Shown piece by piece: positions 6,231 through 12,586 of a DNA stretch of 13,452 bases. The stretch is from Candidatus Eiseniibacteriota bacterium. GTDB taxonomy: Bacteria; JAFGKV01. Positions within the stretch are counted from its first letter, which is position 1. Each line of letters opens with the position of its first letter. The position numbers were made by a program, and so were the translations under genes. The stretch lies in the NCBI GenBank assembly GCA_025453925.1, contig JALOPK010000091.1:1-13452 (forward strand). Direction: 5' to 3'. The notes beneath the pieces were generated by a model. That model searched no databases, was not told the origin of the DNA, and saw only the letters and a program-made list of their open reading frames with translations.

Positions 6231-7019
6231 CTACCGCATGGACCTCCAGTCGATCACATGGAGCCCGACAGTGCGCGCGAGCTCGGCACCCTCGCTGAGG
6301 GGGACGACGTAGTGACCAGGGGCATGCGCATCGCTCCCCAGGGTGACCGCCTCCCCGCCCAATGCGCGGTAGCGCCTCAGTATCTCGATCGATGGGTAGG
6401 GCTCCTCGCAGCCGTGCCGGAGGCCCGACAGGTTCAGCTCGAGAACCCCCCCCCGAGACAACAGTCTCGCGAACATGCTGGAGAACTCCTCGTGGAACAT
6501 CGCCAGAAGCGATGCGCCGGTCAGCCCGGGCACGTATCTCTTGACGTAATCGACATGGCCCACCACCCTGAACAGCCCGGAGTCGACCATCTGTGACGTA
6601 AGCGCCACGAATGGTCGGATCCGTGGTGCGGTGGCCTGCGCCTGCCTCGCCGGCGAGTTCAACCACTCCCGCAGGTAGAGCCCGTCGAGGTCATGGATTG
6701 ATCCGATCACCAGGTCGAAAGGGCGAGACTCGAGAACCTCCCTGATGCGCTCCTCGGCATCCGGGCGGTAGGTTACTTCGAGGCCGATTCCCAGCGGCAC
6801 GGGAGGCCTCGAGGCACCAAGGCGCCGGTGGCGGTCGAACATGCCTTCGAGGTCGAGGTGCATGAATCGACGATCAGTTGGCGCGGGATCACAGTGCTCG
6901 GTGGGACACACGCCGCCGAGATTCAGCTCTTCTGCGTGGGTCAGCACCCAGGAGAGGCTCAACTCCGAGTCCCCTGAGTACTCGGTATGAACGTGGCAGT
7001 CGGACAGGTTCGCGGGCAT
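6231..7019 (-). CDS. PHP-family phosphoesterase, histidinol-phosphatase-like (HisJ/HisK type)
   Basis: A protein of 262 residues, the usual size for PHP-type histidinol-phosphate phosphatases. The ATG at 7019 is preceded by GAGGTG with five bases of spacing; a longer frame upstream has no family similarity. All metal-site motifs of the PHP domain are visible in order: DCHVHTEYSGD (H9, H11, D17), TEHCD (E41, H42), GLEVTY (E81), IGSIHD (H109), GHVDYVKRY (H155, D157) and LGSDAHAP (D230, H232). In histidine synthesis such an enzyme removes phosphate from histidinol phosphate in the cytoplasm. No other his gene is near, so a different small phosphate ester cannot be excluded. Its start lies 22 bp from that of the divergent SGNH hydrolase, so its promoter must lie within that gene. 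Confidence 0.88.
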   Translation of the reverse strand: MPANLSDCHVHTEYSGDSELSLSWVLTHAEELNLGGVCPTEHCDPAPTDRRFMHLDLEGMFDRHRRLGASRPPVPLGIGLEVTYRPDAEERIREVLESRPFDLVIGSIHDLDGLYLREWLNSPARQAQATAPRIRPFVALTSQMVDSGLFRVVGHVDYVKRYVPGLTGASLLAMFHEEFSSMFARLLSRGGVLELNLSGLRHGCEEPYPSIEILRRYRALGGEAVTLGSDAHAPGHYVVPLSEGAELARTVGLHVIDWRSMR

Positions 7020-7041
7020 GGTGCACCTCGGAGGCATCGGC
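7020..7041. promoter_or_regulatory. 22-bp divergent start region with both Shine-Dalgarno sites in one palindrome
   Basis: Between the two divergent start codons lies CCTCGGAGG (7026-7034). Its left arm is the leftward gene's GAGG site and its right arm the rightward gene's GGAGG site. There is no room for promoters, so each gene's promoter must lie inside the other coding region and the 5' ends of the transcripts should overlap. Confidence 0.6.
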
Positions 7042-8154
7042 ATGAGACTACGCGCAATCATAGTCAACATCGGCCTTGCCGTCACCAGCTTTCTGGTTGT
7101 CCTCGTCCTCGCGGAAGGCGCGCTGCGAGTCCGGCACGGTTCGCCCGCGCCGGCGCCCGCCCCCTCGCCGTACCGTACCGCCACTTCCCTTGGATCCCGT
7201 CTCATCCCCGGCGCCGACATGGAATTCCTGTTCGAGAGCACCCATACGCCGGTTCGCGTAACCATCAACCAGCACGGTCTGCGCGGTCCGGCGCCTCGGA
7301 TGTCGCCGTCTGCGAAGAGGGTGTTGTTTCTGGGGGATTCCGTCACGTTCGGCTACGGTGTGGAGGAGGAATCGACTTTCGTGGGTCGAGTGCGGGAGGA
7401 GTGGCGTCGGAGTCTGTCCGACCGCGAAGCAGTCAACGGCGGCATCGAAGACGCCGGCATCGTCGAGGAACGCATCCTTCTGGAAGAGATCGGCGCTGAG
7501 ATCGCCCCTGCGTCCGTGATCCTGTGCTTCTACCCGAATGATTCGCGTCCGCCCGTGGGCTTCTCCCAGGAGTACCTCTTGGAGGACCGTGTTGATCGCT
7601 GGCTCAGGACCCACCCGGCGGTCCTTGCCCGGAGCCGGCTGGCGTCCTTTCTGCATTTCCGCTACCGCGGTCTGCTCGCGCGCCTTCACCTCTACAATAG
7701 CCCGATCCCGGCGCGGTTCGCTTGGATTGACCTCTGGCGGTCCGGCACATGGCGGCATGACGGCGGTGCGTTGGATTCGCTCACATCGCTCGCCCGCTAC
7801 GATTGGGGCGCTGCCTGGCATGGTGATGGCTGGAAACTCGTGGAGCGTGAGCTTCGCGCGATACATCAATGGTGCGGCTCGCGGGGGGTCTCGCTGAGGG
7901 TGTGCTACTCACCCGTCCAGGTGGAGACTGAGGGTCCCGCGGGAAGGTCGCCGCCTGCCGGGCGCTTGGAAGCATTGTGTCGCGCCATGGGCCTCGACTT
8001 CCTCGACCTCCTCCCGGCCGTCAGGGGAAATGCCGGCTGCTACCTTGATCATTGCCACTATACGGCGTTGGGCCACCGCATTGTCGCGCGCGCACTGGTG
8101 CAGTGGCTCGACGTGCCGGCGGGGGAGACTTCGCGAGCTGAGGGAGAGGCTTGA
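7042..8154 (+). CDS. Membrane-anchored SGNH/GDSL-type hydrolase
   Basis: A 370-residue protein. ATG 7042 is chosen over the ATG at 7018 because GGAGG (7030-7034) lies seven bases before it and the protein then starts with a clean basic-hydrophobic anchor (MRLRAIIVNI...VVLVLAEGAL, about 5-25), followed by a Pro/Ala linker (34-43). SGNH marks: LFLGDSVTFGYG with nucleophile S100, NGG (132-134) as the block-II glycine, FYPND with N166 as the oxyanion residue, and DHCHYTALGH with D336 and H339 as the rest of the triad. Such exported hydrolases deacylate or deacetylate lipids, glycans or surface polymers. The substrate is not readable. The GDSVTFG-plus-anchor layout resembles proteins often found with surface-polysaccharide genes, but none lie here. 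It ends 33 bp before selC. Confidence 0.85.
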   Translation: MRLRAIIVNIGLAVTSFLVVLVLAEGALRVRHGSPAPAPAPSPYRTATSLGSRLIPGADMEFLFESTHTPVRVTINQHGLRGPAPRMSPSAKRVLFLGDSVTFGYGVEEESTFVGRVREEWRRSLSDREAVNGGIEDAGIVEERILLEEIGAEIAPASVILCFYPNDSRPPVGFSQEYLLEDRVDRWLRTHPAVLARSRLASFLHFRYRGLLARLHLYNSPIPARFAWIDLWRSGTWRHDGGALDSLTSLARYDWGAAWHGDGWKLVERELRAIHQWCGSRGVSLRVCYSPVQVETEGPAGRSPPAGRLEALCRAMGLDFLDLLPAVRGNAGCYLDHCHYTALGHRIVARALVQWLDVPAGETSRAEGEA

Positions 8155-8187: not shown

Positions 8188-8285
8188 GGGAGTACACAGG
8201 AGCCTGGTGGCCCTCCTGGACTTCAAATCCAGTGTGGGGTGGTAAACACGCCCTGGGTGGGTTCGATTCCCATGTGCTCCCGCCA
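8188..8285 (+). tRNA. selC: tRNA-Sec (anticodon TCA)
   Basis: A 98-nt tRNA with an encoded CCA end. The acceptor arm has 8 pairs: 8188-8195 (GGGAGTAC) with 8274-8281 (GTGCTCCC), including one T-G wobble. The T arm has 5 pairs (8257-8261 with 8269-8273, one wobble) around TTCGATT. This is the 8+5 design specific to bacterial tRNA-Sec. The anticodon arm is CTGGA-CTTCAAA-TCCAG with TCA at 8223-8225, which reads UGA. The long variable arm (8236-8253) has a stem of six pairs and one bulged G. The D arm is AGG-GCC with GGCCCT around TGGT, six pairs and a four-base loop as usual, but with one unpaired A at 8201. The discriminator is G8282. Its presence implies a selenoprotein-making organism; selA, selB and selD are not in the window. 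Confidence 0.95.
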
Positions 8286-8301
8286 GCGAGAGCCGGGTGC
8301 G

Positions 8302-8333
8302 CCCGTACCGGTGGATTACCGCACCGGTACGGG
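8302..8333 (+). terminator. Strong hairpin terminator after selC
   Basis: CCCGTACCGGTG (8302-8313) pairs perfectly with CACCGGTACGGG (8322-8333) across an 8-nt loop, starting 17 bp after the tRNA. What follows is GCTTGTGT, only a weak T-rich tail. The stem would stop read-through from selC, and possibly from the hydrolase gene, into the ribosome operon. Confidence 0.75.
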
Positions 8334-8335
8334 GC

Positions 8336-8458: not shown

Positions 8459-8926
8459 ATGCACGACAAGGCTGAACTCGAAGGCATTTTCATGCCCGTG
8501 CTTTCCCGGTGTGGGCTTGAGCTGATCCGCTTCACCGCCAGCGGGTCTCCCCGCCAGCCGGCCTTCATGGTCTATGTGGATCGCGTGGGCGGCGTGACGG
8601 TGGGGGAGTGCGTCGAGGCAGCGAAGGCCTTGCGTCAGGCGCTGACGCTGCACTTCGGCCCGGGCCGAGCGTTCTCCGTGGCCGCTTCTTCGCCCGGGAC
8701 CGACCGGCTGTTGAGGGCGCAGAAGGATTTTGCGCTCGTTGCCGGGCGGAGCGTCGTACTCCGCGTTCGCGGCCCGAACGGCGACCCCGAGTTCGAGATC
8801 GTGGGACCGGTGCTTCGAGCCGATCAGGAGGGAGTGGTCCTGGGCGTCGGGGAGAACGGAACGGAACACTGCGTACCCTACGACAGAATCGCAACCGCCA
8901 AGTTGAAACTGCCGTACTCAGGGTAA
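8459..8926 (+). CDS. rimP: Ribosome maturation factor RimP
   Basis: A 155-residue cytoplasmic protein that helps assemble the 30S subunit. Residues about 5-83 form the alpha/beta N-terminal domain (LSRCGLELIRF ... FMVYVDRVGGVTVGECVEAA) and end with the family signature SSPGTDRLLRAQKDF (78-92). The C-terminal SH3-like barrel covers about 93-152 (GRSVVLRV ... GVVLGV ... VPYDRIATAKLK). Length and position before nusA are typical. The start ATG has only a weak GGGTG site, beside a hairpin. The signature usually has a proline (LDRPL) where this protein has leucine (TDRLL). Confidence 0.93.
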   Translation: MHDKAELEGIFMPVLSRCGLELIRFTASGSPRQPAFMVYVDRVGGVTVGECVEAAKALRQALTLHFGPGRAFSVAASSPGTDRLLRAQKDFALVAGRSVVLRVRGPNGDPEFEIVGPVLRADQEGVVLGVGENGTEHCVPYDRIATAKLKLPYSG

Positions 8927-9011: not shown

Positions 9012-10424
9012 ATGAACTATGAGGTGCTCGAGGCGATTGGGCAGATTGCCCGGGAGAAGGAGATCGACCGCGCGGTCCTGGTGGAGACGCTCCAGGCGGG
9101 GCTCGTCTTGGCGGCCAAGAAGCGCTACTCCGACGCCAGGGATGTGACTGCGGTGGTTGACCTCGAGACGGGTGATATCTCCATCACTATGGTGCGCAAG
9201 GTCGTAGAGGCCCCGGCGAACCCTGAGCAAGAGATATCGCAGCAGGATGCCCGCGCATTCAAGCCCGACGCGCAGGTCGGCGAGGATGTCCGCGTGCCGA
9301 TTGCGGTGGAGGAATTCGGCCGCGCGGCGGTCCAGGCAGCCAAGCAGGTGATCTACCAGAGAGTGAGAGAGGCGCGACGGGAGCACGTATACGTGGAGTT
9401 CAGGGACAAGGTCGGCCACCTGGTCAGCGGATCCGTGCAGCACGTCGAGCGAGGCAATGCTTCGGTTCTCGTCAACGCGGTCGAGGCGCTGCTGCCCTGG
9501 AGGCACCAGATCCGTCGCGAACGCCACGTGCAGGGAGACACCGTACGGGCAGTGGTCATCGAAGCATCCAACGCTCCACATGGACCGCAGGTGATCCTCT
9601 CTCGGGCAGCACCTGAACTCGTCTCGGTTCTCTTCTCCCTGGAGGCACCCGAGATACGCGAGGGCATCGTGCGCATTGAAGCCATCGCCCGGGAGGCAGG
9701 CGTCAGGACGAAGTTGGCCGTGTCTTCGCGGGAGGGCAGAGTCGATCCCGTGGGCGCCTGCGTGGGCGTCAAGGGCGTCAGGGTGCAGGCGGTGGTCAGG
9801 GAATTGGGGGGTGAGCGGCTGGACATCGTTCCGTTTACGGCTGATCCCGCGGTCTTCATTGCCCGCGCCCTCAGTCCCGCCAAGATCGAGAGGGTCGTAC
9901 TGAACGAGCCTGACAAGAGGGCCATGGTGCTGGTGCCGGATGACCAACTCTCCCTCGCCATCGGCAAGGGTGGCCAGAACGTGCGGCTCGCCGGCCGGCT
10001 CACGGGTTGGGCGCTGGATCTGACGACGATGACCCAGCATCGCGAACAGCTTGGCGCGGAGATCGTGACTCCCATCGGAGTGGTGCGTCTCCCCGGTGTG
10101 GGCCCGAAGATCGCCCGCGAGCTTGAGATCGCCGGATTCGAGACCGTCCAGGATGTTGCCAAGGCCGGTGTTGAGGATCTCATGGCTGTGCCGGGTGTTG
10201 GGAAAGCGCGCGGACGGAGCATCCGGGAGGCCGCGATGCGGCTTCTCCGCGAAGCTGAGCAGGGGGCAGCCTCTCCCGCCCCCGACGGGGAACCGGCGCA
10301 CGCCGACGTCACCCGCGAGGATGCGCCATCCCCTGCGACGAAACGCCGCGTGGCACGCCGACATGCGCCAGTGGCGGACATTGACGATGAACACGATGCC
10401 AGAGATACGGAAGGTGGGGTGTGA
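9012..10424 (+). CDS. nusA: Transcription termination/antitermination factor NusA
   Basis: A 470-residue RNA polymerase-binding elongation factor acting in pausing, termination and antitermination. AAGGAG at 8997-9002 supports the ATG. Domains in order: N-terminal polymerase-binding domain (1 to about 130, MNYEVLEAIG...IDRAVLVETL); S1 (about 133-200, GHLVSGSVQHVERGNASVLV); KH1 (about 205-280, with DPVGACVGVKGVRVQAV); KH2 (about 283-345, with IGKGGQNVRLAGRLTGW); and one paired helix-hairpin-helix region (about 355-412, RLPGVGPKIA and AVPGVGKARG). The tail from about 415 is low-complexity, Pro/Ala-rich then basic and acidic. There are 85 bp between rimP and nusA, with a small hairpin CACGC/GCGTG (8969-8983). 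Its TGA overlaps the infB GTG (GTGA). Confidence 0.96.
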   Translation: MNYEVLEAIGQIAREKEIDRAVLVETLQAGLVLAAKKRYSDARDVTAVVDLETGDISITMVRKVVEAPANPEQEISQQDARAFKPDAQVGEDVRVPIAVEEFGRAAVQAAKQVIYQRVREARREHVYVEFRDKVGHLVSGSVQHVERGNASVLVNAVEALLPWRHQIRRERHVQGDTVRAVVIEASNAPHGPQVILSRAAPELVSVLFSLEAPEIREGIVRIEAIAREAGVRTKLAVSSREGRVDPVGACVGVKGVRVQAVVRELGGERLDIVPFTADPAVFIARALSPAKIERVVLNEPDKRAMVLVPDDQLSLAIGKGGQNVRLAGRLTGWALDLTTMTQHREQLGAEIVTPIGVVRLPGVGPKIARELEIAGFETVQDVAKAGVEDLMAVPGVGKARGRSIREAAMRLLREAEQGAASPAPDGEPAHADVTREDAPSPATKRRVARRHAPVADIDDEHDARDTEGGV

Positions 10425-12586
10425 CAGTGAGTCGTAAGCGCGTGCACCAGGTTGCGAAGGAGTTCAACATCTCCTCAGAGGCCCTGATGGAGCTGCTGCG
10501 TGGCATGGCCGTTGAAGTCAAGAGCCACATGAGCACCGTGGATGACGACACCGTAGCGCGGGTCAAGCAGCACTTCGATGCCGAGAAGGACAAGCTGCGC
10601 GAGGAAGCCGCGCGGAAAGAGAAAGAGCTGGCGCGTCGCCGGGACCAGCATCGGCCACCGGAGCCGGTGGACACTCGGGGCAGAAAGGCGCCGCCCAGAC
10701 CGCAACACCCCCACCGCGACCGGCACGAAGACCAGGTTGCGGTCAAGGCGAGCGTGAAGAAGGTCATGGCGCTCATGGAGTCCGGGAAGCGTGGGCGCAA
10801 GCGCCGGCGCAAGCTGCGCGAGGAGGAAATCGCGGTCGGGGAACCAGAGGTCTCCCAGGTCCTGACTCTCCATGATGCGACGGTCACGGTCGGGGAGCTG
10901 GCGCAGTTGATGGCGCGCTCGCCTGCCGAGATCATACAGATATGCATGGGCCTCGGCGTGATGGCCACCATGAACCAGAGGCTGGATCAGGATACGATCG
11001 AGGCCATCGCGGACGAACTGGGCTATGTCGTCGAGCGCCCCGGGACCCCCACGGAGGCCGACGAAGAAGAAACCGGCCCCCGGCCCCCTGTCGTCACCGT
11101 GATGGGCCACGTCGATCACGGCAAGACATCGCTTCTCGACTTCGTCCGCCGCGCGAATGTCGTCGCGGGAGAGGCGGGCGGCATCACGCAGCATATGGGA
11201 GCGTATGAAGTGGTCCTGCCCGAAGGCCGCATCACGTTCATCGACACTCCCGGGCATCAGGCGTTCACGTCGATGCGCACGCGGGGTGCCCAGATCACTG
11301 ACATCGTCGTTCTGGTGGTATCTGCGGGTGAAGGAGTCATGCCTCAGACGATCGAAGCGATCAACCACGCGAAGGCGGCCCAAGTCCCGATCATTGTGGC
11401 GATCAACAAGATCGATCTCCCCGATGCAAGCCCCGACACGGTGCGGCAGCAGCTCGCGAGCCATGGCGTGATGGTGGAGGCATGGGGAGGCGAAACGATT
11501 GACGTGCCCACCAGCGCCCGCACCGGAAAGGGTGTGGACAAGCTCCTCGAAGCAATTCTCCTGCAGGCGGAGATGATGGAGCTCAAGGCGTCGCGGGGAG
11601 GGCGCGCAGCAGGTGTCGTGATCGAGGCCGGATTGGAGCTGGGACTGGGGCCTGTGGCCACGGTCCTGGTGAAGAGCGGAACCCTCCGCGTCGGGGACGC
11701 TTTCGTCGCGGGAGCTTACTGCGGCCGGGCACGTGCGCTCATCGATGAGAGGGGCACCCGGCTGACGGAGGCGCCACCCTCGAAGGCGGTGCGCGTTGCG
11801 GGTATAGAAGGGTCACCGCAAGCAGGCGACCCGTTCCAGAGCATGGCCGATGAACGCGCGGCACGAGAAGTTGCTGAGCGCAGGCAGGCGATGCGACGCT
11901 ACAAAGGCGGCGGGCTCCCGAAACGAGCTACATTGGACGACTTGTACCGGCAGATCCGGGAAGGCGAGATCAAGGAACTGCGTCTCGTGATCAAAGGCGA
12001 TGTGCAGGGTTCTCTCGAAGCAGTTGTCGAGTCCTTGACCCGTCTCGGCACCAGCGAGGTGCGGGTGAACATTCTGCACCAGGGGATTGGTGCAATCACC
12101 GAATCCGACGTTCTGCTCGCTTCGGCCTCCAAGGCGGTGGTCATCGGGTACCACGTGCGCCCCGGTGCCCGCCCCCAGGAAGTGGCGGAACGCGAGGGCG
12201 TCGAGATCCGAACCTACAGGGTGATCTACGAATGTGTCGATGACATTCAGAAGGCACTGGAGGGACTGCTTGAGCCGGACTTCGAGGAGGTCACAGTCGG
12301 TCGTGTGGCGGTTCGCCAGGTCATCCACCACCCGAAGGCAGGCACCGTGGCGGGATGCTACGTGCTCGAGGGCTCGGTCGACAGGTCCTCGAGGGTCCGC
12401 GTCCTGAGGGACGGGGTCGTCATGGCCGATTCACGGATAGGATCGCTCAAGCGGTTCAAGGAGGACGTCCGCGAAGTGCAGGCCGGGTACGAGTGCGGCA
12501 TCGTCGTCGATAACTTCGGTGATGTGCACGAGGGTGACCAACTCGAGATCTACCGAACGCAGGCTGTTGCCCGCACCCTGCACTGA
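10421..12586 (+). CDS. infB: Translation initiation factor IF-2
   Basis: A 721-residue GTPase that brings fMet-tRNA to the 30S subunit and drives subunit joining. It has two IF2_N-type segments (about 5-52 and 149-203), joined by a charged linker rich in Arg, Lys and Glu with His/Pro patches. The G domain reads GHVDHGKT (229-236, G1), GGITQH (G2, T256), DTPGH (275-279, G3), NKID (329-332, G4) and SAR (365-367, G5). Domain II follows (VIEAGLELGLGPVATVLVKSGTL), then domain III (about 520-615) and the tRNA-binding C2 domain (about 625-721). In domain II the common DKGRGPVAT reads ELGLGPVAT, a small departure. The start is GTG 10421, overlapping the nusA stop, or GTG 10427 two codons later; AAGGTG at 10411-10416 fits either. 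No ylxR or L7Ae-like gene stands between nusA and infB. Confidence 0.96.
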   Translation: MTVSRKRVHQVAKEFNISSEALMELLRGMAVEVKSHMSTVDDDTVARVKQHFDAEKDKLREEAARKEKELARRRDQHRPPEPVDTRGRKAPPRPQHPHRDRHEDQVAVKASVKKVMALMESGKRGRKRRRKLREEEIAVGEPEVSQVLTLHDATVTVGELAQLMARSPAEIIQICMGLGVMATMNQRLDQDTIEAIADELGYVVERPGTPTEADEEETGPRPPVVTVMGHVDHGKTSLLDFVRRANVVAGEAGGITQHMGAYEVVLPEGRITFIDTPGHQAFTSMRTRGAQITDIVVLVVSAGEGVMPQTIEAINHAKAAQVPIIVAINKIDLPDASPDTVRQQLASHGVMVEAWGGETIDVPTSARTGKGVDKLLEAILLQAEMMELKASRGGRAAGVVIEAGLELGLGPVATVLVKSGTLRVGDAFVAGAYCGRARALIDERGTRLTEAPPSKAVRVAGIEGSPQAGDPFQSMADERAAREVAERRQAMRRYKGGGLPKRATLDDLYRQIREGEIKELRLVIKGDVQGSLEAVVESLTRLGTSEVRVNILHQGIGAITESDVLLASASKAVVIGYHVRPGARPQEVAEREGVEIRTYRVIYECVDDIQKALEGLLEPDFEEVTVGRVAVRQVIHHPKAGTVAGCYVLEGSVDRSSRVRVLRDGVVMADSRIGSLKRFKEDVREVQAGYECGIVVDNFGDVHEGDQLEIYRTQAVARTLH

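Follow-up and report, generated by a model that had tools for sequence, protein, structure and literature searches.

The analysed window, a 13,452-nt stretch of DNA, carries on its plus strand a selC gene (8188-8285) that, judged from sequence comparison, almost certainly encodes a functional tRNA-Sec of the bacterial 8/5 type. Its D arm holds one additional base, which is real but is a common variation among bacterial selC genes. The source genome is that of an uncultured member of Candidatus Fermentibacteria, and the closest records in a NusA search were MAGs of this group (JAFGKV010000324, 76% identity; JAUXFG010000007, 64%). Since this genome is itself a MAG, 82% complete and fragmented into 502 contigs, the co-occurrence of genes described below rests on binning.

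The only tRNA gene detected by ARAGORN in the window was a tRNA-Sec with the anticodon TCA, 98 nt long including an encoded CCA. When the window was searched with the whole Rfam library, the single match was the tRNA-Sec model RF01852 at the same place (78.8 bits, E 3e-15, cut-off 47), and a search of the whole genome with this model found no second place above the cut-off. The score ranked 17th among the 153 genomes with a match. According to the pairing script, the 5′ strand of the acceptor stem (8188-8195) forms 8 bp with 8274-8281, including one U-G pair. The anticodon arm (8216-8232) has a 5-bp stem and the loop CUUCAAA with UCA at 8223-8225, and the T arm (8257-8273) has a 5-bp stem and the loop UUCGAUU, giving 13 bp of acceptor plus T stem (8/5), with G73 also encoded. 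The earlier note had read this gene as a complete tRNA-Sec with 8+5 arms and a UCA anticodon, and had proposed scoring it with a covariance model; both the architecture and the score, well over the cut-off, agree with that reading. The gene shares with the bacterial 8/5 tRNA-Sec described by RF01852 the 8+5 arms, the UCA anticodon, the long variable arm, G73, and a 6-bp D stem with a 4-nt loop, and differs from it in having a single base left unpaired in the 5′ strand of the D stem. Folded without constraints, neither this tRNA nor its counterparts in a genus relative (G001) and a family relative (G002) gave a cloverleaf as the minimum-energy structure, a frequent outcome for tRNAs when modifications and tertiary contacts are left out of the folding.

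The D arm (8198-8214) forms six pairs, 8198-8200 with 8212-8214 and 8202-8204 with 8209-8211, around the loop UGGU (8205-8208), when A8201 is left out as a single-base bulge, and only five pairs without a bulge. The acceptor and anticodon stems are separated by 20 nt (AC AGGAGCC UGGU GGCCCU C). Thus, the pairing analysis reproduced both the spacing and the dependence of the sixth pair on an unpaired A8201 that had been noted earlier. The tRNA of the genus relative differs from that of the window at one base (C8211 to U), so that its bulge could fall on A8201 or G8202, while the tRNA of the family relative carries U at the positions of both A8201 and C8212. Both relatives keep the 20 nt and the six bulged D-stem pairs, and the spacing is therefore found in three of three family genomes.

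To place this arm among bacterial selC genes, 386 genomes across the domain were searched, of which 153 had a tRNA-Sec at E <= 1e-11; beyond the window's family, the selC sample is thus domain-wide. With the sequences of an earlier search added, 149 selC sequences were read, and all but three could be parsed. The acceptor-to-anticodon spacing was 19 nt in 92 of these 146 genes and was first scored as 20 nt in 48. Five of the latter (L039, L156, L159, L183, and L187) were excluded, as the 3′ strand of their acceptor is 7 nt long, leaving 43 genes (about 30%) with a true 20-nt spacing and an 8-bp acceptor. These represent 34 families, counted by hand from the family labels of the tool, and since related genomes are not independent, the counts give a frequency rather than a number of evolutionary events. 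In all 43 genes, the additional base lies in the 5′ strand of the D stem, and the UGGU/CGGU loop is retained. Allowing a single internal bulge gives six D-stem pairs in 36 genes and five in the other seven. In a shuffled control, in which the 3′ strands were redealt among the sequences in 2000 trials, six pairs were formed by 8.2 sequences on average and by 16 at most. In genes whose bulge can be assigned to a single base, this base is most often A; its position along the stem differs between genes.

E. coli selC has 19 nt between its acceptor and anticodon stems, one fewer than the window gene, and the earlier note used it as the only yardstick for the length of the D arm. The survey shows this comparison to be misleading, given how many of the surveyed genes share the 20-nt spacing. 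The suggestion that the additional base may be a lineage trait held in so far as all three family genomes have it, but because the same spacing occurs so widely in the sample, the bulge is not a distinctive mark of this lineage.

The same bases could also be arranged without a bulge if the D stem is shifted, so that 3 nt link it to the acceptor stem and A8201 faces C8212 as an internal mismatch. The Rfam alignment, whose consensus has a 9-bp acceptor, gives the window gene these same D-stem partners, and in the family relative the bulged fold is not preferred (-42.7 versus -43.1), the two lying within 0.4 kcal/mol. However, the shifted stem has just five pairs in the window and in both relatives and reaches six in none of the 43 genes with 20-nt spacing, and the bulged fold is better by 3.0 kcal/mol for the window gene and by 2.1 kcal/mol for that of the genus relative, which makes the shifted stem unlikely. 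A 9/4 fold of the archaeal/eukaryotic type, in which an A8196-U8273 pair lets the acceptor stem absorb the additional base, could be drawn for the window and the genus relative, but not for the family relative, where A stands opposite C. Of the 48 genes initially assigned a 20-nt spacing, only 15 have a first linker base that could form such a Watson-Crick pair, whereas every selC with 19- or 20-nt spacing has the 49-65 pair of the 8/5 fold. For the window gene, the 9/4 fold is also less stable by 3.9 kcal/mol; we regard this fold as very improbable. Both alternatives were consequently rejected on pairing counts and energies in favor of the bulged D stem.

A second irregularity, an additional G8250 in the variable stem, had been proposed in the earlier note and proved unnecessary. 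The variable arm (8235-8255, plus strand) forms a regular, unbulged 7-bp stem, 8235-8241 with 8249-8255, around a 7-nt loop (8242-8248); three of the seven pairs are G-U, and G8250 pairs with U8240. Both relatives keep this unbulged register, and most of the listed 24-nt variable arms have a stem at the corresponding position. The bulged register with G8250 was 0.7 kcal/mol worse in the window (-42.8 versus -43.5) and lost one pair in the family relative.

Bulged nucleotides in bacterial tRNA-Sec, including a D-stem nucleotide 13a in Clostridiales, were described in the Secmarker paper (PMC5330540), where the 13a bulge is listed among forms whose acceptor has 7 bp and whose acceptor and T stems together have 12 bp. 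The window gene was compared with these 7/5 forms and does not belong to them, its acceptor stem having 8 bp instead of 7. No paper describing how frequent a D-stem bulge is in 8/5 tRNA-Sec was found in the part of the literature that was covered. It is possible, though doubtful, that the 5′-side D-stem bulge represents a widespread undescribed class of 8/5 tRNA-Sec to which the N-terminal domain of SelA has adapted in those lineages.

The selC gene lies between an upstream SGNH/GDSL-like hydrolase gene (7018-8154, plus strand; Pfam GDSL match just below the cut-off) and a downstream rimP (8459-8926, plus strand; RimP_N match slightly below the cut-off), which is followed by nusA (9012-10424) and infB (10421-12586), the latter named from its sequence and a weak SelB-family match. 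As had been noted, it stands alone between the hydrolase and the rimP operon, and the window contains no selA, selB, or selD. The E. coli selC is likewise a free-standing gene with the same cloverleaf. The order PHP hydrolase, SGNH hydrolase, selC, rimP, nusA, infB is identical in both relatives; therefore, the position of selC is old in the family and is not a sign of decay. A simple scan found neither a sigma-70-like promoter nor a T-tailed terminator beside selC. Downstream of the gene, a long inverted repeat lacking a T run (CCCGTACCGGTG...CGCACCGGTACGGG, 8296-8335) may be a terminator; the corresponding position in the genus relative showed no such repeat.

The search of the genome for selenocysteine machinery, which the earlier note had suggested, found selA (523.6 bits, contig C390), selB (333.9 bits, contig C170), and two selD genes over the cut-off (366 bits, C92; 363 bits, C389). 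Each selD contains one in-frame TGA at the active-site position (LTTAAG-U-AAK). Two formate dehydrogenase alpha genes were also found, a complete match on C393 and one cut by the contig end on C339, each with one TGA at the known Sec site (HCARL-U-HS), as in the genus relative. In single-sequence folds, a possible SECIS-like hairpin with the apical loop GGUCU lies downstream of each of these formate dehydrogenase UGA codons, and the selD genes have possible hairpins with GGUC at the tip. GGUCU is the loop read by SelB in the SECIS of E. coli fdhF. These findings bear out the suggestion that in-frame UGA codons elsewhere in the genome may encode selenocysteine, and on sequence grounds the genome very probably decodes them in this way. 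No match to the FlpD family was found in this 82% complete MAG, and no publication that mentions Fermentibacteria together with selenocysteine turned up. A single MAG of this completeness in 502 contigs might raise the suspicion that the gene is an artefact of sequencing or assembly, or that it is a pseudogene decaying after the loss of selenocysteine from the genome; this has a negligible probability given the equal tRNA length in two independently assembled relatives, the single base difference from the genus relative, and the full sel machinery with UGA-containing selenoprotein genes.

The two selD genes (L018, G000:C92, 500-1435; L019, G000:C389, 1501-2433) are 63% identical. A counterpart 81% identical to the first is present in the genus relative, which has none closer to the second; the latter is thus a paralogue or contamination introduced by binning. 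An open frame upstream of the first (L018, 15-480) encodes a product that by eye is YedF-like, YedF being associated with selenium metabolism. Besides a UGA-containing selD, the genus relative (L204, G001:C199) and the family relative (L203, G002:C33) each encode a SelD of the cysteine type within a longer open frame. In L204, this frame also encodes a NifS-like cysteine desulfurase as an N-terminal fusion partner, an arrangement not found in the window's incomplete genome.

In the proposed pathway, SerRS would charge the tRNA-Sec with serine, SelA would convert it to Sec-tRNA using selenophosphate from SelD, and SelB would deliver the Sec-tRNA to UGA codons that precede a SECIS hairpin. The unpaired base leaves the six stacked D-stem pairs and the 4-nt loop whole, so that the structural feature read by SelA should be kept and SelA should tolerate the bulge, leaving recognition intact. 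This fits a review in which the N-terminal domain of SelA holds the D arm, recognition is structural, and the fifth and sixth pairs help whatever their sequence (PMC7609411).

The presence of selA, selB, selD, and UGA-containing formate dehydrogenase genes, together with the conserved gene order, thus points to an ordinary functional tRNA-Sec and supports the UGA assignment. For tRNA-Sec covariance models and tRNA-Sec engineering, it is useful that a D arm 1 nt longer than that of E. coli is normal for bacterial tRNA-Sec. For the organism, selC marks the genome as one that very probably decodes UGA as selenocysteine, and its formate dehydrogenase and selD genes should therefore not be annotated as broken.
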